64,000 nt of DNA, from NCBI GenBank assembly GCA_021800255.1, contig JAJYZC010000001.1, positions 62,001 through 126,000 on the forward strand. Reading direction: 5' to 3'. This document shows positions 4,612 to 44,707 of the stretch, piece by piece. This DNA comes from Acidobacteriota bacterium. Its GTDB lineage: Bacteria > Acidobacteriota > Terriglobia > Terriglobales > Acidobacteriaceae. The stretch's first letter is position 1. Every line of letters begins with the position of its first letter. The notes beneath the pieces are model-generated. The model was not told the origin of the DNA, made no database searches, and saw only the letters and a list, made by a program, of their open reading frames with translations. A program made the position numbers and the translations under genes.

Positions 4612-7600
4612 ATCAGAATCTCGGATTAGCCGGAAAAATTGCAAAGGCGTTCCTCAACTCCAAGTTGACGCCGCTGTTCATCATTTCGGCGCTGGCCATC
4701 GGGACCTTTGCCACCATGGTGATCCCGCGCGAGGAAGACCCGCAGATCATGGTGCCTATGCTCGACATCACCACCGCCATGCCGGGCGCGTCGCCAGCCG
4801 AGGTTGAGAAGCGCGTCACCGAGCCCATTGAGATGCTCGTACACCAGATTTCGGGGGTGAAGTATATCTATTCGACATCGAGCCAGGGCCAGAGCCTGGT
4901 GATCGTGCGCTTCATGGTCAACACGCCGCAGGAAGAGGCGCTGATTACGGTTTACAGCAAAATCTACTCCAACTTCGACGTGCTTCCGCCGGGCGCTTCG
5001 CGCCCCATGATTAAGGCGCGGTCGATTGACGACGTGCCCATCCTCACGTTCTCGCTGTGGGGCCCGAATTACAACGGCTATCAGCTTCGCACCATCGCCG
5101 ATGAGGTGCAGCACCACATCGAGCAGATTCCAAATGTTTCCGAGACCCACGTGATCGGCGGCCTGCCGCGCACTATGCGCGTGGTTCTGAACACCGCCAA
5201 GCTGAACGCCTACGGTCTTTCGCCGATGGCCATCGTCAGCGATTTGCAGGCTGCCAATGCGCGTTTGCAGGCGGGCAGCTTCTCAGAGAACAACCAGGAA
5301 ATCGCCGTGGATGCCGGCAATTTCTTTACCAGCACCAAGGACCTTGAATCGGTGGTGGTGAGCGTGGACCAAGGCCGCCCCGTTTACCTGGGCGACGTGG
5401 CAGACAAGATCGTGGACGGGCCCGCGGAGCCCACCAACTACGTGCTCTTCGGCACCACCACCACGGGATCACATCAGCCGCCCGCGCGGTACCAATCCGT
5501 GACCATCAGCGTGGCCAAGCTCAAAGGCACCAACGCTACTACCATCGCCAACGCGGTGATGGCCAGCGTCGACCGGATGCGCGGCGACGTAATACCCAAA
5601 GACGTGCACATCACCGTAGACCGCAACTACGGCCACACAGCCAAAGTGAAGGCCGACGAGCTGCTCTTTCACTTGTTGCTGGCCACGATCTCCGTCACTT
5701 TGCTCATCGCGCTGTTCCTGGGCTGGCGGGAGTCGGGCGTAGTGCTGCTGGCGATTCCCGTCACGCTGGCGCTCACCATGGCGGTCATCTACCTGATCGG
5801 CTACACCATCAACCGCGTCACGCTCTTCGCGCTCATCTTTTCCATCGGCATTCTGGTGGACGACGCCATTGTCGTCGTCGAAAACATCGTGCGTCACTAC
5901 CGATTGCCTGAGAACCAGCACCGCTCGTGCAGCGACGTCACCATTGAAGCCGTAGCCGAGGTCGGCAACCCCACCATTTTGGCTACTTTCACGGTGCTGG
6001 CCGCGGTGCTGCCCATGGCCTTTGTGCGCGGGCTGATGGGCCCGTATATGCGGCCCATTCCGGTGGGATCGTCGGCGGCCATGCTCTTTTCTCTGATCGT
6101 GGCGTTTGTAGTGTCGCCGTGGGCGGCCATGCGGCTGCTGGGCAAGCACTTCGGCAAAGCTCGCATCCTGGAGCCGGAAGGCGAAAACTGGCGCACGCGG
6201 CTCTACCGGCGCGTGATGACCCCGCTGATCGCATCGCGGCGCAACCGCGTTTTCTTCTTTACCGCCGTGATCGTGCTGCTGCTCGGGTCGATGGCTCTGG
6301 TGCCGCTAAAGTGGGTGCGCGTGAAGATGCTGCCCTTCGACAATAAGAGCGAGCTGCAGGTAATCATCAACATGCCTGAGGGCACGCCGCTGGAACAGAC
6401 GCTGCGCGTGGCGGATGCGCTGGGCAACACGCTGGCGTATCAACCCGAGGTTCTGAACTATCAGGTTTACGCAGGAACCTCGGCGCCCTACAACTTCAAT
6501 GGCCTGGTGCGCCACTACTATCTGCGGCGCCAGCCCGATCAGGCCGACATCCAGGTGAATCTGTTGCCGCCCAAGGAGCGGCGCCTGGAGAGCCACGCCA
6601 TCGCCAAGCGTTTGCGGCCCCTGCTGGACGCCGCCGGAAAAAAGTATGGCGTGCGCAGCATTCAGGTTACCGAGGTGCCGCCCGGGCCGCCGGTGCTGCA
6701 AACCCTGGTGGCTGAGGTCTACGGCCCCAGCCTGGCGGGACAAATCCGCGTAGCGCGGCAGATCAAATCCATCTTTCTGCACACGCCCGGCGTGGTAGAC
6801 ACCGATTGGTACGTCGATGATCCGCAGCCGCGGCTGGTGATCAGCGTCGATCAGGTCAAAGCCGCTGAGAATGGCATCGCCGTCGCGGAGGTTGCGCACG
6901 CTTTGGCTCTGGCCAGCTCGGGAATGCAGGTGGGCTTGCTGCACGATCCGTACTCGCGCGAGGCGATTCCCTTAACCGTAGAGATCGATCGCGCTGACCG
7001 CTCGTCTGAGCAGGGTCTGGAAAACATCAAGCTGCCGGCCGCAAATGGCTCCATGGTCTCGCTGCGCGAGCTGGTCACCGTCCAGCGCACGATCATTCCC
7101 CAGAGCATCTACCGCAAGAACCTGAAGCGCGTGGTCTACGTGACCGGCGACGTGGCCGGCGCCGAAGAAAGCCCCGTCTACGCCATCCTCAAGATGAACA
7201 AGCAGCTCGATCACCTGCGCCTGCCGGCCGGCTACATCCTGCGCCGCTACAACGCCGAGCAGCCCCGCTACACCAATCACTACTCCATGAAATGGGACGG
7301 CGAATGGCAGATCACCATCGAGGTTTTTCGGGACCTTGGACTGGCCTTTGCGGCCGTACTGGTGTTGATTTACATCCTCGTGGTGGGATGGTTCCGCTCA
7401 TTTGTGGTGCCGCTGATCATCATGGCGCCGATACCGCTGACGCTGGTGGGCATTCTGCCTGCGCACGCCATGCTGGGCGCGTTCTTCACCGCGACTTCGA
7501 TGATCGGCTTCATCGCCGGCGCCGGCATCATCGTGCGCAACTCCATCCTCATCGTGGACTTCATCGAGCTGCGCTGGCGGCAGGGAGTTCCGCTGGCTCA

Positions 7601-7856
7601 AGCGGTCATCGACGGCGGCGCCATCCGCTTCCGTCCCATGCTGCTGACGGCGGCGGCGGTGGTGGTCGGCTCCAGCGTCATCCTCACCGATCCCATCTTT
7701 CAGGGGCTGGCCATCTCGCTGATGGCCGGCGCCATCGCCTCGACGTTCCTGTCGTGGCCCGTCATTCCCATCCTCTACTACGTGGTTCACCAGCATCGCA
7801 AAGCTCCGATGACCTGTGAACCCTCAACCAATCAAGGAGAATCCAATGACCGTTGA
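4608..7856 (+). CDS. RND efflux permease (AcrB/HAE-type family)
   Basis: A 1082-residue inner-membrane proton-driven pump. The first helix (LTPLFIISALAIGTFATMVI) is followed by REEDPQIMVPMLDI and a porter domain, then helices TM2-6. The TM4 segment carries the proton-relay aspartates in SIGILVDDAIVVVENI. A second porter half and the symmetric C-terminal helix bundle (GAGIIVRNSILIVDFIELR) complete the duplicated architecture. The sequence resembles the subgroup often annotated as acriflavin resistance proteins, not the CusA metal type, because the methionine pathway is not obvious. It overlaps the adaptor by four bases and the next small gene by eleven. Substrate cannot be predicted. Confidence 0.92.
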   Translation: MNQNLGLAGKIAKAFLNSKLTPLFIISALAIGTFATMVIPREEDPQIMVPMLDITTAMPGASPAEVEKRVTEPIEMLVHQISGVKYIYSTSSQGQSLVIVRFMVNTPQEEALITVYSKIYSNFDVLPPGASRPMIKARSIDDVPILTFSLWGPNYNGYQLRTIADEVQHHIEQIPNVSETHVIGGLPRTMRVVLNTAKLNAYGLSPMAIVSDLQAANARLQAGSFSENNQEIAVDAGNFFTSTKDLESVVVSVDQGRPVYLGDVADKIVDGPAEPTNYVLFGTTTTGSHQPPARYQSVTISVAKLKGTNATTIANAVMASVDRMRGDVIPKDVHITVDRNYGHTAKVKADELLFHLLLATISVTLLIALFLGWRESGVVLLAIPVTLALTMAVIYLIGYTINRVTLFALIFSIGILVDDAIVVVENIVRHYRLPENQHRSCSDVTIEAVAEVGNPTILATFTVLAAVLPMAFVRGLMGPYMRPIPVGSSAAMLFSLIVAFVVSPWAAMRLLGKHFGKARILEPEGENWRTRLYRRVMTPLIASRRNRVFFFTAVIVLLLGSMALVPLKWVRVKMLPFDNKSELQVIINMPEGTPLEQTLRVADALGNTLAYQPEVLNYQVYAGTSAPYNFNGLVRHYYLRRQPDQADIQVNLLPPKERRLESHAIAKRLRPLLDAAGKKYGVRSIQVTEVPPGPPVLQTLVAEVYGPSLAGQIRVARQIKSIFLHTPGVVDTDWYVDDPQPRLVISVDQVKAAENGIAVAEVAHALALASSGMQVGLLHDPYSREAIPLTVEIDRADRSSEQGLENIKLPAANGSMVSLRELVTVQRTIIPQSIYRKNLKRVVYVTGDVAGAEESPVYAILKMNKQLDHLRLPAGYILRRYNAEQPRYTNHYSMKWDGEWQITIEVFRDLGLAFAAVLVLIYILVVGWFRSFVVPLIIMAPIPLTLVGILPAHAMLGAFFTATSMIGFIAGAGIIVRNSILIVDFIELRWRQGVPLAQAVIDGGAIRFRPMLLTAAAVVVGSSVILTDPIFQGLAISLMAGAIASTFLSWPVIPILYYVVHQHRKAPMTCEPSTNQGESNDR

Positions 7857-8055
7857 ACGTGGACTTCGCCTGTTAGCGGGCATCTTCGTGCTCGGCTCCC
7901 TCGCCCTTGCTCATTACTTCTCGCCGAACTGGCTGTGGCTGACTGCGCTAGTCGGACTCAACCTCTTCCAGTCGGCCTTCACCAACTGGTGCCCGGGCAT
8001 GGTGATTCTGCGCGCCCTGGGGCTGAAGGACGCCGGCTGCGACAAAGCCATCTGA
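7846..8055 (+). CDS. YgaP-like DUF2892 small membrane protein
   Basis: A 69-residue protein starting at ATG 7846, which has a near-perfect AAGGAG ribosome site seven bases upstream that lies inside the 3' end of the permease gene. Two hydrophobic segments (LRLLAGIFVLGSLALAHYF and WLWLTALVGLNLFQSAF) are followed by the family signature NWCPGMVILRALGLKD. DUF2892 is the membrane half of YgaP, where it accompanies a rhodanese; here no rhodanese is present. Family members are frequently placed next to RND pumps, as seen here. The conserved CP near the membrane may be redox- or thiol-active, which is inference. Confidence 0.85.
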   Translation: MTVERGLRLLAGIFVLGSLALAHYFSPNWLWLTALVGLNLFQSAFTNWCPGMVILRALGLKDAGCDKAI

Positions 8056-8062
8056 GGCCGCT

Positions 8063-8647
8063 ATGCACGAAAAACGCATGTCCGCTTCCCGCGCCGATCG
8101 TCTCGAAGATCCCGCGCGCCTCGTGTGGCTTCCACCCAGCGAAGTGCTGGGCGCGCTGAAGTTGCGCGACGGAGAGACGGTGGCCGACGTGGGTGCGGGT
8201 ACGGGATACTTTGCGCTGCCCATGGCGCGCGCCGTGGGAGCGAAAGGCAGGGTATACGCCGTGGATGCTCAAGCCGAAATGCTGGCGCGGCTCAAGGAGA
8301 AGCTCCGTGACGCCGCGCTCACTAACGTCGAGCTGGTCCAGGCGGAGGCGGATCGCACCGCCCTGCCTGCGTCCGCCTGCGATCTCTTCTTCCTCGCCAA
8401 CGTGTGGCACGAGCTAGACGATCACGCCGCCACGCTCGGCGAAGCCCGCCGGGTGCTGAAGCCGCACGGCCGGATCGCAATCCTCGACTGGCGGCCCGAT
8501 GTGGAGCAGGCGGACGGTCCGCCGCTGGCTCACCGGCTCGATTCCGCCCATGCCATCGGCCACCTGCGCACGGCCGGCTTCGAGCCTCTTACCCAGACCT
8601 TCACCGGCCAGTACTCCTGGCTGTTACAGGGAGAGATGCGTCCATGA
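8063..8647 (+). CDS. Class I SAM-dependent methyltransferase
   Basis: A 194-residue Rossmann-fold methyltransferase. Motif I is VADVGAGTGYFALPMA (about residues 40-55), followed by the acidic residue of motif II (VYAVDAQ) and motif post-II/III in DLFFLANVWHELDDH and VLKPHGRIAILDWRP. The pattern is that of the UbiE/ArsM-like methyltransferases that act on small molecules. It starts seven bases after the DUF2892 gene and its stop overlaps the next start (ATGA), so it belongs to the efflux operon. Substrate unknown; it could modify or detoxify the pump substrate, an idea based only on context. Confidence 0.85.
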   Translation: MHEKRMSASRADRLEDPARLVWLPPSEVLGALKLRDGETVADVGAGTGYFALPMARAVGAKGRVYAVDAQAEMLARLKEKLRDAALTNVELVQAEADRTALPASACDLFFLANVWHELDDHAATLGEARRVLKPHGRIAILDWRPDVEQADGPPLAHRLDSAHAIGHLRTAGFEPLTQTFTGQYSWLLQGEMRP

Positions 8648-8922
8648 CTGCGCAAAAAGCCGCTTCCTTGGGCGCAGCTTCCCGCCGCGGTTGCGGCGAG
8701 CGGCTCAAGGATGAGGTCTACCGTCAGATGTTCCGGCTGGAAGCGCGCCATCCCGGCGCCGACAGGGACCTCGCCGTCGCCCTGCTGCGCGCCTGGATTG
8801 CCTGCGGTTCGCCGGCTGCTCGCAAGGGAGAGATACAGTGGCTGAAGAAGATCTGCCCCATCTGTCTGGGTATGATTGACGATGCCCTGCAGGCCGGCCC
8901 ACGCCGCCTGGAAATCCGCTAA
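8644..8922 (+). CDS. Small uncharacterised protein, last gene of efflux operon
   Basis: A 92-residue hydrophilic protein whose ATG overlaps the methyltransferase stop (ATGA), which supports it being translated. The middle (KDEVYRQMFRLEARHPGADR) looks helical and charged. Near the end it carries IQWLKKICPICLGMIDDAL, a CxxC pair that could bind metal or act as a thiol pair; another Cys is at CGERLK. I do not recognise the family. It is followed by a structured inverted-repeat region, consistent with the operon ending here. Confidence 0.65.
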   Translation: MTAQKAASLGAASRRGCGERLKDEVYRQMFRLEARHPGADRDLAVALLRAWIACGSPAARKGEIQWLKKICPICLGMIDDALQAGPRRLEIR

Positions 8923-8924
8923 CT

Positions 8925-9020
8925 CAAAACCAGGGCAGATGTATCCCGGTGGCACAAACCGGGCACCAGCGAGCAGCGGCCTTCACTAACCCCATACAAC
9001 ACACCGCAGCCCTGGTTTTG
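8925..9020. repeat. Nested inverted repeats, possible terminator or structured RNA
   Basis: CAAAACCAGGGC (8925-8936) and GCCCTGGTTTTG (9009-9020) are perfect inverted copies 72 bases apart. Inside lies a second hairpin, CCCGGT (8945-8950) with ACCGGG (8958-8963) and a seven-base loop. The element begins three bases after the operon's last stop. It may end the efflux transcript, or be a small palindromic element; there is no T-run. Confidence 0.55.
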
Positions 9021-9161
9021 CCGTAAGCGCAAAGCTCCGATTCCAGCGGCGGCTCGGCACTGACAGTCAACCGGTTCCTTCCGTCAAAAACTGCCTTATA
9101 CATCTTGCCTTTGGCATTGCACGCGGGAATATACTGAAGCAGTCTCCGAACCGAAGCAACG

Positions 9162-10082
9162 ATGCGCCCCGAACTGACTCAAGCAACTGAACTTTTGCGC
9201 CGACAAACGCCTGAAGCCGTCGAAGAAGCCATCGGTCTGCTTCAGAACACGGTTTACTCCTTCAGCATGAAGGTCTGCGGCCATCCGCAAGACGCCGAAG
9301 ACACGATGCAGGAGGTGCTCTTTCGCTCTCTCGGCCATCTGGCCAAAATTCAGGACCCGCAGGCGCTTGCGGTCTGGCTCTATACCGTAACCAGAAACCG
9401 CTGCTGGCGCATGAGGCGCAAACCCGCCGGCGCTCCCGCGCGCACTCTGTCGCTCGACGAGTTGATGCCCGATCAGACGGAGTTGGGGCGCCTTCTTGAG
9501 GACGCGGCCAAAACTCCCGAGGCCAACCTTCTTGATGGCGAGCAGCACCACCTGCTGCACGAGGCAGTGCTGCGCATTCCGGCGCCGCTGCGCATCGTTC
9601 TTGTGCTGCACGATATGGAGGAACTGACCACCGAACAGGTGGCCGCAATCCTGGGTTTGCAGCCCGGAACTGTCCGTGTCCGCCTGCACCGTGCGCGCCT
9701 GAGCGTGCGCCAGCAGATGACGCGCATCCTCGAAACAACGCCTCAAGCGAAGGACGGCGCTTCGGCAACCGGAAAACGCCGCGGCGCACGCGCCAAACCC
9801 GCTCAGCGCCCGGCCGAGTGCCACAAACTGTTTGCCAGCCTCTCGGACTATCTGGACGGAAAGGTGCCGCAGCCCGCTTGCGACCAGATGCGGAAACACA
9901 TCGAGGCCTGCCCGGCGTGTGTCGCCTTTCTGCGCGACCTGCGCGCCGCTATCGATCGCTGCCGCGCACTGGAAACCCCCTGCGATCCGGCCGTCGCCAG
10001 CCGTCTGCGCGCTATCCTCACCCAGGAGTATTTACGCATGTTGGGCCTGCCGGGCAGAGAAAAGACGCGCTCCGCCATGTAA
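9162..10082 (+). CDS. ECF-type RNA polymerase sigma factor with C-terminal zf-HC2 domain
   Basis: A 306-residue regulator. Sigma region 2 lies at about residues 26-85 (YSFSMKVCGHPQDAEDTMQE, WLYTVTRNRC) and region 4 at about 125-185 (LRIPAPLRIVLVLHDMEELT, LGLQPGTVRVRLHRARL). After a basic linker comes a zinc-binding anti-sigma-like segment, CHKLFASLSDYLDGK then HIEACPACVAFLRDL, the H-x3-C-x2-C zf-HC2 pattern normally found in a separate anti-sigma factor. The fusion suggests the sigma factor senses its signal, probably redox or metal, in cis. No membrane segment is present, so it should be cytoplasmic. A TATACT at 9130 lies in the right area for a promoter. OsmC follows, a possible target. Confidence 0.9.
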   Translation: MRPELTQATELLRRQTPEAVEEAIGLLQNTVYSFSMKVCGHPQDAEDTMQEVLFRSLGHLAKIQDPQALAVWLYTVTRNRCWRMRRKPAGAPARTLSLDELMPDQTELGRLLEDAAKTPEANLLDGEQHHLLHEAVLRIPAPLRIVLVLHDMEELTTEQVAAILGLQPGTVRVRLHRARLSVRQQMTRILETTPQAKDGASATGKRRGARAKPAQRPAECHKLFASLSDYLDGKVPQPACDQMRKHIEACPACVAFLRDLRAAIDRCRALETPCDPAVASRLRAILTQEYLRMLGLPGREKTRSAM

Positions 10083-10130
10083 CGAAGACTTGCCCGCATG
10101 GATTTCATCGAATGAAAAGTGGAGGTCGAT

Positions 10131-10547
10131 GTGGAAGTTAAAATCTCGCATCTGGGACAGGTAAAGTTCGCCGTTCAGGCGCGGTCGCACACCGTTGTCT
10201 GCGACCAGCCGCTGGAGAACGGCGGAGAAGACGCAGGCGTGACGCCTCCGGAACTGCTGCTTGCGTCGCTAGGCGCCTGCGCGGCCTTCTACGCCGCCCA
10301 ATATCTCAAAACCCGCAACCTCGCCCAGGCCGGCGTCGAGGTCACGGTTGCCGCGGACAAGCTTATGCAGCCTGCCCGCTATGGCAACTTCCGCATTCAC
10401 GTTGTCTGCCCTGTTGCGCTCACGGAAGAGCAGACGCAAGCCATGATGCGCTCCGTGCGCCACTGCACGATTCATAATACGTTGTCGTCATCATCGGAGA
10501 TTGCAGTCGAGGTCGAGATGGCCACCCGCGTGGCCGTCCTCTCATAG
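10131..10547 (+). CDS. OsmC/Ohr-family protein
   Basis: A 138-residue OsmC-like protein. OsmC and Ohr are cytoplasmic thiol-dependent peroxidases that reduce organic hydroperoxides; related YhfA-type members have less certain roles. The first conserved Cys is in ASLGACAAFYAAQYLKTR and the second in RHCTIHNTL, matching the two catalytic cysteines. I chose GTG 10131 because GGAGG lies five bases upstream; a GTG at 10119 would add four residues. It lies 48 bases after the sigma factor gene in the same direction, so it may be cotranscribed or controlled by it. Ordinary length. Confidence 0.85.
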   Translation: MEVKISHLGQVKFAVQARSHTVVCDQPLENGGEDAGVTPPELLLASLGACAAFYAAQYLKTRNLAQAGVEVTVAADKLMQPARYGNFRIHVVCPVALTEEQTQAMMRSVRHCTIHNTLSSSSEIAVEVEMATRVAVLS

Positions 10548-40105: not shown

Positions 40106-41425
40106 ATGCGAAAAATCCTGCGCGTTTTGGCGGCAGCATATTTTTTAATCGCCGTGAATTGGGCCTATGCCGTACCGAGCTTTGCCCGTCAGACGGATCT
40201 GTCCTGCAATGTCTGCCACAGCAATCCTCCGGAACTGACCGCTTTTGGCCGTAACTTCAAGCTGCACGGATATCTGCTGGCAAAGACCGGCAAAAACGAG
40301 AAGGTTGGGACTAGTAAGGCGCTCCGTCTTTCCATGAAGATTCCTCTCGCGGTCATGATGCTGCTTTCCGACACCGCATACCAGGCGAACCAGCCCGCGA
40401 CCCAGAACAACTCCGCGGGCTTTCCACAGCAGTTGAGCATCTTTCTAGCCGGCGCGTTCGCATCCCACTTCGGCGGGCTGGCCCAGGTTACTTACTCGCA
40501 CGCCGAAGACCACTTCGGCATGGACAATACCGACCTGCGTTACGCCAACCAGAGCAAGCTGCTGCACAAGACCCTGGACTACGGGATCACCATCAATAAC
40601 AACCCCACCGTCGAAGATATCTGGAACAGCACCCCGGCATGGGGCTTTCCCTGGATCTCCACCGCTTCCAGCGTAAGTCCGCTCGCCTCTCCCATCATCA
40701 ACGGCACCCTCGGCCAGGATGTGGCGGGGCTGGGCGGTTATGGGATGTGGAACAACCATCTCTACGGCGACATTACCCTCTACCGCTCCGAACATGCCGG
40801 CGCGGCGACACCCATAACGGGAGCGGGAGAGCAATATAACATCAGCGGCGCCGCTCCTTATTGGCGGGCAGCATGGCAACAAACCTGGAGCGATAACTAT
40901 CTCGAGGTCGGAACTTATGGCATGGATGTTAACTCATTCCCCAATGCGATCTCCGGGCCCGAAGACCGCTACGTGGACACCGCCTTCGATTTTCAATACG
41001 AACACCCCTTCGGCCCCAACCTTCTCGACGCTCATGGAACGTACATCCATGAGAAATCGGATTTGGGCGCAACGTATGCGGCCGCCGGAGCAAGCACGGC
41101 CTTGAATCATCTGAATACCTTCAAGCTGGATAGCACATATCATTGGCGAAACCGATACAGCGCGACCGGCGCGCTGTTTTCCACCACCGGCAATCGCGAT
41201 CCCCTGCTTTACGCGCCGGCTCCGCTGACCGGCAGCGAAAATGGCGATCCCGATACGAGCGGATATATTGCGCAGCTCGCCTTCTGGCCGGTGCAAAACA
41301 TCGACATCGATTTCAACTACTCAGGCTACTTCAAATTTAACGGCGCCAGCACCAATTACGACGGCGCCCACCGGAATGCTTCTGACAACAACACCACCTA
41401 TATGGCTCTGTGGTTGAACTTCTAG
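40106..41425 (+). CDS. Cyc2-like fused monohaem cytochrome c and outer membrane porin
   Basis: A 439-residue exported protein. A signal peptide (about 1-22, ending NWAYA) precedes VPSFARQT, then the haem motif C34-N-V-C37-H38 and PELTAFGRNFKLHGY. The FARQT-CxxCH-PxLxxFGRxFKxxGY block is the hallmark of Cyc2, the outer-membrane fused cytochrome-porin that oxidises Fe(II) in Acidithiobacillus and neutrophilic iron oxidisers. The remaining ~370 residues look like a beta-barrel with alternating strands and a terminal aromatic (YMALWLNF). Length falls in the short Cyc2 range. It is followed by Rieske and b-type genes. The substrate is not proven; Cyc2-like proteins without iron-oxidising function may exist. 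Confidence 0.72.
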   Translation: MRKILRVLAAAYFLIAVNWAYAVPSFARQTDLSCNVCHSNPPELTAFGRNFKLHGYLLAKTGKNEKVGTSKALRLSMKIPLAVMMLLSDTAYQANQPATQNNSAGFPQQLSIFLAGAFASHFGGLAQVTYSHAEDHFGMDNTDLRYANQSKLLHKTLDYGITINNNPTVEDIWNSTPAWGFPWISTASSVSPLASPIINGTLGQDVAGLGGYGMWNNHLYGDITLYRSEHAGAATPITGAGEQYNISGAAPYWRAAWQQTWSDNYLEVGTYGMDVNSFPNAISGPEDRYVDTAFDFQYEHPFGPNLLDAHGTYIHEKSDLGATYAAAGASTALNHLNTFKLDSTYHWRNRYSATGALFSTTGNRDPLLYAPAPLTGSENGDPDTSGYIAQLAFWPVQNIDIDFNYSGYFKFNGASTNYDGAHRNASDNNTTYMALWLNF

Positions 41426-41433
41426 GAGACAGC

Positions 41434-41991
41434 GTGGAACAGGAACTAAGTAAGGACAATCTAGCCGGAAGAAAAGATGTCATTATCATCAACCGGCGCT
41501 CCTTCTTCGGGGCATTGCTGGCCATTGGCTCGGCAGGAATGGGCGCCATTCTTGCCGTTCCGGTGCTGCGGTACGTTCTCTATCCGATCTATGCCAAAGC
41601 CTCGGGAATCGCGTGGGCTGACGTGGGTGATCTCAGCGAGTTTGCTGAAATCTCCGCTCCTGTCCGCAAGACCATCACCTTCGCCCAGCTCGACGGCTGG
41701 CGTCAGGTGGAGTCTGCGCAATCGGTCTACGTGAATCGCACCAGCGGGGGAGAATTCGAGGTCCTATCCGCCATCTGCCCCCACCTGGGATGCAGCGTCT
41801 CCTGGCAGAAGAATGCAGACGATTTTCTCTGTCCCTGCCACGGGAGCATTTTTTCGCCGGATGGGAAGCTCGTGAAGGGCCCGGCGCCGCGGGGGATGGA
41901 TCCCCTTCCCCACCGCGTGAAGAACGGCAAACTGCAGGTTCGTTTTGAATTTTTCCGGGAAGACGTCCCCAATAGAGAAGTAGTCAGTTAA
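41434..41991 (+). CDS. Rieske iron-sulphur protein of a bc complex
   Basis: A 185-residue protein that accepts electrons from quinol at the Qo site. GTG 41434 has AGGAG five bases upstream and lies eight bases after the previous stop. NRRSFFG (residues 20-26) is a twin-arginine signal followed by a membrane helix (about 28-50), normal for Rieske proteins that fold in the cytoplasm. The cluster ligands are C115-P-H117-L-G-C120 and C133-P-C135-H136, both motifs complete. It is directly followed by the cytochrome b fusion gene. Confidence 0.93.
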   Translation: MEQELSKDNLAGRKDVIIINRRSFFGALLAIGSAGMGAILAVPVLRYVLYPIYAKASGIAWADVGDLSEFAEISAPVRKTITFAQLDGWRQVESAQSVYVNRTSGGEFEVLSAICPHLGCSVSWQKNADDFLCPCHGSIFSPDGKLVKGPAPRGMDPLPHRVKNGKLQVRFEFFREDVPNREVVS

Positions 41992-42010: not shown

Positions 42011-44707
42011 GTGGACGAAAAGGAAAAATTAGCTTCCGCCACATCCTCCGGCGAGAGCCTTTCGAAACGCCTATACCGTTGGCTGGACAGGCGCGCCGAA
42101 GTGAATAAGCTGATGGAGGAATCGCTCGACGAGCCGATTCCGGGCGGAGCGCGCTTCGCTTACGTTTTTGGCTCTGGGCTGCTCTTCATCTTTATCTCGC
42201 AGATCATTACCGGCATCTGCCTGGCTATTTATTACGTGCCCTCGGCTGAGACCGCCCATACCAGCGTAGCCTACATCACCAAGAAGGTCGCCGCGGGCGA
42301 CTTCCTGCGCAGCCTCCACTACTATGGATCGAGCGCGATGATCATCGTGCTCCTGCTGCATTTTCTGCAAACCTTTCTCTATGGCTCCTTCAAGGGAAGA
42401 CGCGAACTGCTCTGGATGTCCGGGGCCACACTCTCGTTGCTGGTGCTGGGCATGGGTTTCACCGGCTACCTGCTGCCCTGGGATCAGAGAGCCTATTTCG
42501 CTACCGCGGTGGGCACCAATATCGTCGGCGAAGTGCCGCTCATCGGCGGTTGGCTCACAAAGCTGATGCGCGGCGGCGACACCATCGGCACTCTTACACT
42601 GTCGCGCTTTTACGTCGCTCATGTCTTTCTCATTCCCGCCTGCATCTTCGCCTTCATCAGCATTCACATTTACCTTTTTCGCAAAGCCGGCGCGGCCGGC
42701 CCAATGCACGAAAATCCAGTTCATCCCACGCTGCCGCCGGAGGGGTTCTACCCGCGCCAGGTCCTCATGGATATGGCGTTTGCCCTGTTACTGATGGTGG
42801 GTCTGGGTTTTCTGGCCTACTTCCACCCCATCGGTCTCGGTCCCATCGCCAACCCCGCCAACACCCACTATCTGCCGCGGCCCGAGTGGTATTACCTGCC
42901 TTTCTTTGAATGGCTCAAGCTCTGGGAGGGGCCGAAAGCCGTCATCGCGGTCGTGGTTACGCCCGCCCTGCTGGCAGCGTTGTTCTTCCTTCTGCCGTTC
43001 CTCGACCGCAGCCTGGAGCGCAGGCCGTGGCGCAGGCCCATTCCCGTGCTGGCGGTGGGCATCGTCCTCGTGGGCATCTTCTTCCTGGGCATCAGGAGCC
43101 GGATCGACGACGAGGACGACCCCACCGTAGCCGCTCAACTGGCGCGTCAAGCAGAGCAGGAAAGGGCCTATACGAAAGCGCCCTTCCGTCCCTATATCGA
43201 GTCACCGGGCGCAACGGGTCCGCTGGCGCTTCCCACCGGCCCTGTGAATCCGCTGGTGTCGCAGGGCAGAGGGGTCTTTCAGTCTGAGGGATGCTCCGGC
43301 TGCCACGGCGACACCGGCATGGGAACTATGGTTGCGCCCAGCCTCGAAGGCATCACCACCAAGTTCTCGGGGCCGCAGTTGACCGCACTGCTGCACAACC
43401 CCAATGCCGCCATGAGAGCCGGTCACATGCCTTCCTTCGACATATCGAATAGCGACATGTCGGCCCTGCTCGCCTACCTGGGAGTGATCGGAACCGCCGC
43501 AGCCAACGTACAACCGACCTCCGGCGAAATTGCGCAGGCGCCTGTCGCCGCGTCACAGGCCGCGCCGGCGGCGGCCGGACTACCGCAAGCCGCCGCTCCG
43601 GCGCCCAAGCAACTCTCAGCGCAGGCAGCCGCAGGCAGCCAGATCTTCCAGCAGCACGCTTGCTCGGCTTGTCACGGGCCAGCCGGACAGGGTGCGGTGG
43701 CGCCTGCTCTTGCTCCGTTGATCGCTCATCTTTCTGGCCCGCAGCTAACACAGCTATTGCAGCATCCAAATGCCAAGATGAAGGCTGGCGGAATGCCGCC
43801 CTTCGCGGGAACGGCCGGCCAGCTTGACTCCCTGATTGCTTTTTTGCGCACACTCAAGCCGCCGGCGCAGCAGGCCCAACAGCAGCCGCAGCCGCAGCAG
43901 TCGGCGGCCATGGCGTTCGCTTCGGAAAATGGCGGCGTTCCTTATCCGGAGGAGGGTTCTGCGCCTGCTCCTTCGGCGGTCACAAATGGGGTTCGCTCCG
44001 CATCCCCAACTCTTCCCGGCGGGGCTGTCTCTTCATCTCGTGCGGTTGCTGCTGCTTCGCCCGCATCCGCTCCGAGTCCAGGCCGCGCGCTCTTTCTTTC
44101 CCAAGGATGCTCTGCCTGCCACGGACCCTCCGCGCAGGGCACGCGGTTCGCTCCCTCGCTGATCGGTATCAGTAAGAAATTCCCCGGCGACAAGCTGCCC
44201 TATCTGCTGCGCCACCCAACTCGCGCAATGCGCGGCGGGGGAATGCCGACAGTAGCTCTGAACGACCAGCAGCTAAAGCAATTGGTGGCCTATCTGTCCA
44301 CTCTAACCCCTGCCTCCGCCCGAGCGCCGGCTGCGCAGTCCAGTCCCGCTGTTGGCACGGCGAATATGCAACCCTCTGCGGCTCCGCCAGCCCCGTCCAA
44401 CACGGCTGCCCCGGCGCCCGCTCGGCCTGCCCCGCTGAGTCCGCTGGCCAAACGCGGTGAGCGCATCTTCGAGAGCATGAACTGCGAAACCTGCCACGGA
44501 GTAGGCGGGTTGACCGGGACCGTCGCCGCGCCGCCGCTGGCGGGCACGGCCTCGCTGCTCCCCGCCAATGTTCTTGAAAACCTGCTGCGGCACCATTCCA
44601 AACGCATGCAGGAGGGCGGCATGCCGCTCACCAACCTGAACCCGCAGGACATGAAATCGCTGATCGCCTATATTCGCTCCATGCCCTCGTCCTCCACGGC
44701 AAAATAA
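42011..44707 (+). CDS. Cytochrome b (b6-like) fused to four haem c domains
   Basis: An 898-residue quinol-oxidising subunit. The N-terminal ~365 residues are cytochrome b with eight helices. Haem b ligands are H103/H117 and H204/H219; the second pair is spaced H-X14-H, as in b6f-type rather than mitochondrial bc1. PEWY (291-294) marks the Qo site. After a short linker come four c-type domains with CxxCH at 428, 551, 700 and 825 (CSGCHG, CSACHG, CSACHG, CETCHG), separated by Pro/Ala/Gln-rich linkers. With the Rieske gene this makes a bc complex from two genes. Start is GTG 42011, GGAG six bases upstream. Confidence 0.9.
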   Translation: MDEKEKLASATSSGESLSKRLYRWLDRRAEVNKLMEESLDEPIPGGARFAYVFGSGLLFIFISQIITGICLAIYYVPSAETAHTSVAYITKKVAAGDFLRSLHYYGSSAMIIVLLLHFLQTFLYGSFKGRRELLWMSGATLSLLVLGMGFTGYLLPWDQRAYFATAVGTNIVGEVPLIGGWLTKLMRGGDTIGTLTLSRFYVAHVFLIPACIFAFISIHIYLFRKAGAAGPMHENPVHPTLPPEGFYPRQVLMDMAFALLLMVGLGFLAYFHPIGLGPIANPANTHYLPRPEWYYLPFFEWLKLWEGPKAVIAVVVTPALLAALFFLLPFLDRSLERRPWRRPIPVLAVGIVLVGIFFLGIRSRIDDEDDPTVAAQLARQAEQERAYTKAPFRPYIESPGATGPLALPTGPVNPLVSQGRGVFQSEGCSGCHGDTGMGTMVAPSLEGITTKFSGPQLTALLHNPNAAMRAGHMPSFDISNSDMSALLAYLGVIGTAAANVQPTSGEIAQAPVAASQAAPAAAGLPQAAAPAPKQLSAQAAAGSQIFQQHACSACHGPAGQGAVAPALAPLIAHLSGPQLTQLLQHPNAKMKAGGMPPFAGTAGQLDSLIAFLRTLKPPAQQAQQQPQPQQSAAMAFASENGGVPYPEEGSAPAPSAVTNGVRSASPTLPGGAVSSSRAVAAASPASAPSPGRALFLSQGCSACHGPSAQGTRFAPSLIGISKKFPGDKLPYLLRHPTRAMRGGGMPTVALNDQQLKQLVAYLSTLTPASARAPAAQSSPAVGTANMQPSAAPPAPSNTAAPAPARPAPLSPLAKRGERIFESMNCETCHGVGGLTGTVAAPPLAGTASLLPANVLENLLRHHSKRMQEGGMPLTNLNPQDMKSLIAYIRSMPSSSTAK

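Follow-up and report, generated by a model that had tools for sequence, protein, structure and literature searches.

A cytochrome b fused to four cytochrome c domains, encoded with a Rieske protein and a Cyc2-like porin in Acidobacteria

Gene cassette and fused cytochrome b

The analysed window, a 64,000-nucleotide stretch of an Acidobacteriota genome, harbours on the forward strand a cassette of three genes: (i) porC (40106–41425), encoding a 439-aa Cyc2-like fusion of a monohaem cytochrome with a 16-stranded outer-membrane barrel, (ii) a gene for a Rieske [2Fe-2S] protein (41410–41991; Pfam PF00355, E 3.8e-12) with a probable GTG start at 41434 and both cluster-binding motifs (CPHLGC and CPCHG), and (iii) cytb (42011–44707), an open frame with GTG start for an 898-aa cytochrome b that carries four cytochrome c domains in the same chain. 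The original prediction, made from the DNA alone, was right about the domain make-up of the last protein, but overlooked the conserved porC/Rieske cassette; the span it gave (43261–44707) suits the c part alone and not the gene, which starts at 42011.

The CxxCH motifs at residues 428, 551, 700 and 825 can be read directly from the single chain. Pfam matches to Cytochrom_C and Cytochrome_CBB3 (four each, besides Cytochrome_B and Cytochrom_B_C) bear out the claim of four genuine c domains, and together with the invariance of the haem ligands they rule out chance occurrence of the motif. A frameshift or assembly artefact, originally considered as an objection, is likewise ruled out: about 40 independent assemblies concur, and intact full-length orthologs share 74 % and 72 % identity in two genomes of the same genus and 62 % in another family of the same order.

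The cytochrome b core (residues 1–362; 42011–43096, + strand) unites cytochrome b6 and subunit IV, with an NCBIfam match for the subunit IV half at residues 265–363 of the same chain. The haem b ligands are His103-X13-His117 and His204-X14-His219; these four histidines and the PEWY motif (residues 291–294) identify the protein as a cytochrome b of the Rieske/cytochrome b type. The closest solved chains are those of cytochrome b6 (E 2e-46), and the ligands align without gaps to His86/100/187/202 of b6 (2zt9_A), so that the label "b6-like", first given for the H-X14-H spacing, stands. In contrast to cyanobacterial b6f, both halves are joined in one chain, and Cys35 of b6, the covalent cysteine of haem ci/cn, aligns to Val52. 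As judged from the sequence, the core hence resembles b6 in the spacing of its ligands, yet lacks the ci cysteine and is fused to the C-terminal half. AlphaFold2 modelled the core poorly within the whole chain (pLDDT about 35–70 over most of it), the alignment being shallow. Identity with the selenite/tellurite protein ExtP was rejected, as the score lies under the NCBIfam cut-off and the match concerns the b6 core only.

Tail domains and linkers

The tail comprises c domains d1 (residues 414–493; 43250–43489; CSGCH 428, Met473), d2 (residues 537–616; 43619–43858; CSACH 551, Met595), d3 (residues 686–765; 44066–44305; CSACH 700, Met745) and d4 (residues 811–893; 44441–44689; CETCH 825, Met871), all on the + strand. 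Domains d1–d3 were delimited by motif, alignment, AlphaFold2 and c-domain tree, and d4 clusters with the ancestral terminal domain. The compact domains measure about 80 residues and repeat at a spacing of 123–149, in place of the 100–120 residues per domain first assumed. They are separated by linker 1 (residues 494–536; 43490–43618), which is Pro/Ala-rich (81 % P/A/Q/S/T/G) with pLDDT <50 over 504–532, and by linkers 2 (residues 617–685; 43859–44065) and 3 (residues 766–810; 44306–44440), which were assigned by composition, conservation and AlphaFold2 (all + strand). The three linkers thus span 43, 69 and 45 residues, and about 51 more precede d1.

All four methionines and every CxxCH motif are invariant in 31 aligned proteins. 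Mean conservation is 0.88 for the b core and 0.69–0.80 for the c domains versus 0.33–0.44 for the three linkers. The structure prediction proposed earlier as a check yielded confident c domains (pLDDT mostly 70–92) and linkers of about 25–35. Each tail domain is therefore predicted to be a separate class-I His/Met cytochrome c. Invariant ligands combined with drifting linkers that are predicted to be disordered suggest beads on strings rather than a packed wire: the proposed periplasmic extension of the chain is supported, whereas ligand type and linker disorder rule out a rigid wire and speak against the term "wire-like". A flexible tether fits the tail better than stacked haems. By rough estimate, the fully stretched linkers could exceed the width of the periplasm by far, while the average coil of this linker length covers roughly half of it; electron transfer along the tail would need transient contact between domains. 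Class-I His/Met haems are usually of high potential.

The porin-like cytochrome PorC

Cyc2 proteins are defined by the motif AXPXFAR[Q/K][T/Y], one CXXCH, a PXL motif, a length of >365 aa and a 16-stranded porin (Keffer et al., PMC8406198). PorC contains AVPSFARQT followed after 3 aa by CNVCH and then PEL, and agrees with Cyc2 in the first motif, the single CXXCH and the length. Its PEL, however, lies 3 residues past the His of CNVCH, versus 4 for PXL of Cyc2. The AlphaFold2 model comprises 16 strands (mean pLDDT 69), and its Foldseek matches are outer-membrane barrels, some of them porins. PorC, known from sequence and model, further differs from Cyc2 in being encoded with Rieske/cytochrome b rather than with Cyc1, rusticyanin or an oxidase.

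Distribution and conservation of the cassette

The same four-haem architecture is present intact in about 40 other genomes of Acidobacteria, including that of cultured Acidipila rosea. Spread beyond the order was judged from the best 80 loci, among which 39 encode four and 5 encode five haems (44 multi-haem loci in total), the remainder having one haem, two haems or an interruption by a contig end. Many of the metagenome bins bear names resembling putative mine-site codes. Both porC and the Rieske gene accompany cytb in every multi-haem locus that includes upstream sequence (42 of 42); the other two loci begin within cytb. The remaining genes near the cassette of the window recur in just one locus. 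In a five-haem locus (L105), porC (9001–10317) lies downstream of cytb rather than upstream, indicating that the porC/cytb pairing outlasts rearrangement. PorC is also found with single-haem complexes, so that pairing is possible without four haems.

Gain and loss of tail domains

In the cytochrome b tree, every four- or five-haem form falls into a single clade. The c-domain tree, which rests on 86 columns and is weak in detail with uncertain inner order, resolves clades for d3 and d4, and one for d2 once d2 of the two-haem locus L096 is included. The single domain of one-haem relatives joins d4/d5 in this tree (support 100/93), which places the three added domains after the b core and ahead of the original terminal domain and rules out addition of the extra domains at the C-terminus. 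Domains 1–4 of the five-haem form L106 (palsa_252, cytb 5692–9090) are nearly identical copies, as if recently duplicated or homogenised.

Two loci with shorter tails are nested in the multi-haem clade: L104 (strain AB60) has one haem of type d1, and L096 has two of types d1 and d2. This position together with the domain types indicates truncated forms. No porC match was detected in the whole genomes of either, that of L096 being a draft bin. At the level of gene content, this joint loss, in one or two events, links the porin with the distal domains; a test of tail versus porin by independent pairs was consistent in direction, with 2–3 pairs being too few for significance.

A small separate cytochrome c gene, often directly upstream of the Rieske gene, is present in 24 of 30 one-haem clusters versus none of 42 multi-haem clusters (Fisher value 7e-14, relatedness ignored). 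The simplest reading of its absence from multi-haem loci is that the tail takes over the role of a soluble carrier. Origin of the tail by fusion of this neighbouring cytochrome is unsupported, its sequence type being, by eye, unlike d1–d3.

Further clusters and porC homologs

A second cluster of the same genome (L156, contig C90, 22686–31039) encodes an NAD(P) oxidoreductase with Fe-S domains, a Rieske protein, a b6, a subunit-IV-like protein, an octahaem cytochrome c (689 aa), a cytochrome c lipoprotein and, at its end, a PorC paralog. It resembles the b6f-like complexes of anammox Kuenenia, which have an octahaem c and an NAD(P) oxidoreductase (PMC12954380), and adds a Cyc2-like porin. In one genome, two dissimilar Rieske/cytochrome b complexes are each encoded with a porin of the Cyc2 type, which lends weight to the link between complex and porin.

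Other multihaem genes were noted on contig C52 (L158, 6264–13684), where an open frame for a decahaem cytochrome (377 aa) is accompanied by a membrane protein (483 aa, five CxxCH) and by four small monohaem cytochromes c in tandem. Within the genus of the window, L027, L030, L031, L033 and L034 encode a different type of Rieske/cytochrome b with a nine-CxxCH protein directly after it.

In Ignavibacteria/Bacteroidota/Kapaibacterium (L126, L128, L131, L107), a one-haem cytochrome b and a Rieske protein are encoded with porins of the FARQT motif close by; the porin/cytochrome b pairing may accordingly extend past Acidobacteria. Homologs of porC also occur in Caballeronia, adjoining a HiPIP gene, and on plasmids of the Fe(III) reducer Acidiphilium cryptum JF-5. 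One such homolog (33 %) neighbours a transposase and a c-type cytochrome, a layout common to plasmids of A. cryptum JF-5 and Acidithiobacillus ferrooxidans YQ-N3 (L159, L161); its presence in two different acidophiles makes horizontal transfer likely.

Proposed function and direction of electron flow

The cassette is proposed, with modest confidence, to form a quinol:cytochrome c complex with its own periplasmic carrier that trades electrons with the Cyc2-like porin and probably reduces extracellular Fe(III) in acid surroundings. The Rieske/cytochrome b complex would oxidise quinol and carry its own, probably high-potential, four-domain c tail on flexible linkers. Electrons would pass from the Rieske centre to a proximal c domain and hop down the tail through domain contacts to the haem of PorC in the outer membrane, the tail thereby replacing the separate small cytochrome c known from single-haem relatives. 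A more tentative suggestion, drawn from gene sequences, is that the inner-membrane chain itself spans the periplasm and exchanges electrons directly with PorC, such that the quinol complex would be hard-wired to the surface without a soluble carrier. Beyond the observed domain make-up, conservation, cassette, domain history and joint loss of porin and distal domains, we infer the contact with the porin, the iron substrate and the outward direction.

Outward flow, i.e., Q cycle-coupled oxidation of menaquinol with reduction of extracellular Fe(III), would be the most likely use, Fe(III) being strongly oxidising under acid conditions. With menaquinol at about -75 mV (PMC6195509) and Fe(III)/Fe(II) at +770 mV at pH 2 (PMC8406198), such flow would be strongly downhill and could allow energy conservation. 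Acidicapsa species and Acidobacterium capsulatum are reported to reduce Fe(III), and for Acidithiobacillus a route of Fe(III) reduction from bc1 to Cyc2 was proposed (both reviewed in PMC8790237).

Fe(III) reduction is favoured, with oxidation of Fe(II) as its main rival. In the latter case PorC would oxidise extracellular Fe(II), and the tail would pass electrons to a terminal oxidase or uphill via cytochrome b to quinones. Fe(II) oxidation has been demonstrated for Cyc2 (PMC8406198) and is its best-known activity, the bc1 complex of Acidithiobacillus operates uphill (PMC8790237), and the genome of the window holds three COX1 genes. However, RuBisCO, the sole CO2-fixation route looked for, is absent from this genome, and uphill flow for that route would hardly be needed; known acidophilic Acidobacteria are heterotrophs, several of them reported Fe(III) reducers (PMC8790237), and flow to an oxidase requires no tail on the quinol complex. 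We therefore regard inward flow as distinctly the less probable direction.

Two further readings concern the tail itself. It could simply link bc complex and terminal oxidase, in the manner of the dihaem c of actinobacterial bcc-aa3, with porC as an incidental neighbour. His/Met domains are suitable for donation to an oxidase, Actinobacteria do use two tethered c haems, and the NCBIfam model QcrC matches domains 3–4 weakly, below its cut-off. This appears improbable, as porC is present in all multi-haem cassettes with flanking sequence and missing where the tail is shortened, and as the cassette contains no oxidase gene whereas the third Rieske/cytochrome b cluster of the genome (contig C30) adjoins cytochrome oxidase genes. 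Very unlikely is a role of the tail as electron capacitor, in which charge would be stored on several equivalent haems whenever acceptor is in short supply, and the repeat number would drift by neutral duplication. A varying haem count (4, 5) and the near identity of domains 1–4 in L106 would agree with it, but d2, d3 and d4 can each be followed as a lineage of its own through many species, their ligands being invariant, and loss of porC is accompanied by loss of the distal domains.

Relation to known systems and significance

The complex shares with b6f/bc complexes the Rieske protein, the four b-haem histidines with X13/X14 spacing, the PEWY motif and a c-type acceptor, and differs from them in its 4–5 separate c domains, long linkers, missing haem-ci cysteine and the Cyc2-like porin in the cassette. 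A cytochrome b with a fused dihaem c domain is known from Kuenenia (Kuste3096-3097), with similar fusions in Gram-positives (PMC12954380). Geobacter GSU2930-2937 likewise combines Rieske/cytochrome b with many c haems and was suggested as the place where extracellular respirers oxidise quinol (PMC2825233), but there the haems reside in separate proteins of 2, 5, 10 and 12 haems, versus a single chain of class-I domains here. The bc1-CycA-rusticyanin-Cyc2 chain of Acidithiobacillus (PMC8790237) also joins the quinone pool across the periplasm to an outer-membrane Cyc2; its periplasmic carriers, however, are separate soluble proteins instead of domains of cytochrome b. In contrast to the close-packed wires MtrA and OmcS (clustered CXXCH, bis-His), the tail has one CXXCH per class-I domain of about 80 aa and an invariant Met.

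Within the open-access literature searched (subscription literature excluded), neither this fusion nor the cassette is described, and no named pathway was found there for iron-reducing Acidobacteria. Electron passage through the periplasm between quinone pool and outer-membrane cytochromes of the Cyc2 type is little understood. The pattern of tail and porin loss yields a specific prediction, and the presence of the three genes in cultured Acidipila rosea makes both the crossing of the periplasm and the pathway of iron reduction in Acidobacteria directly testable.
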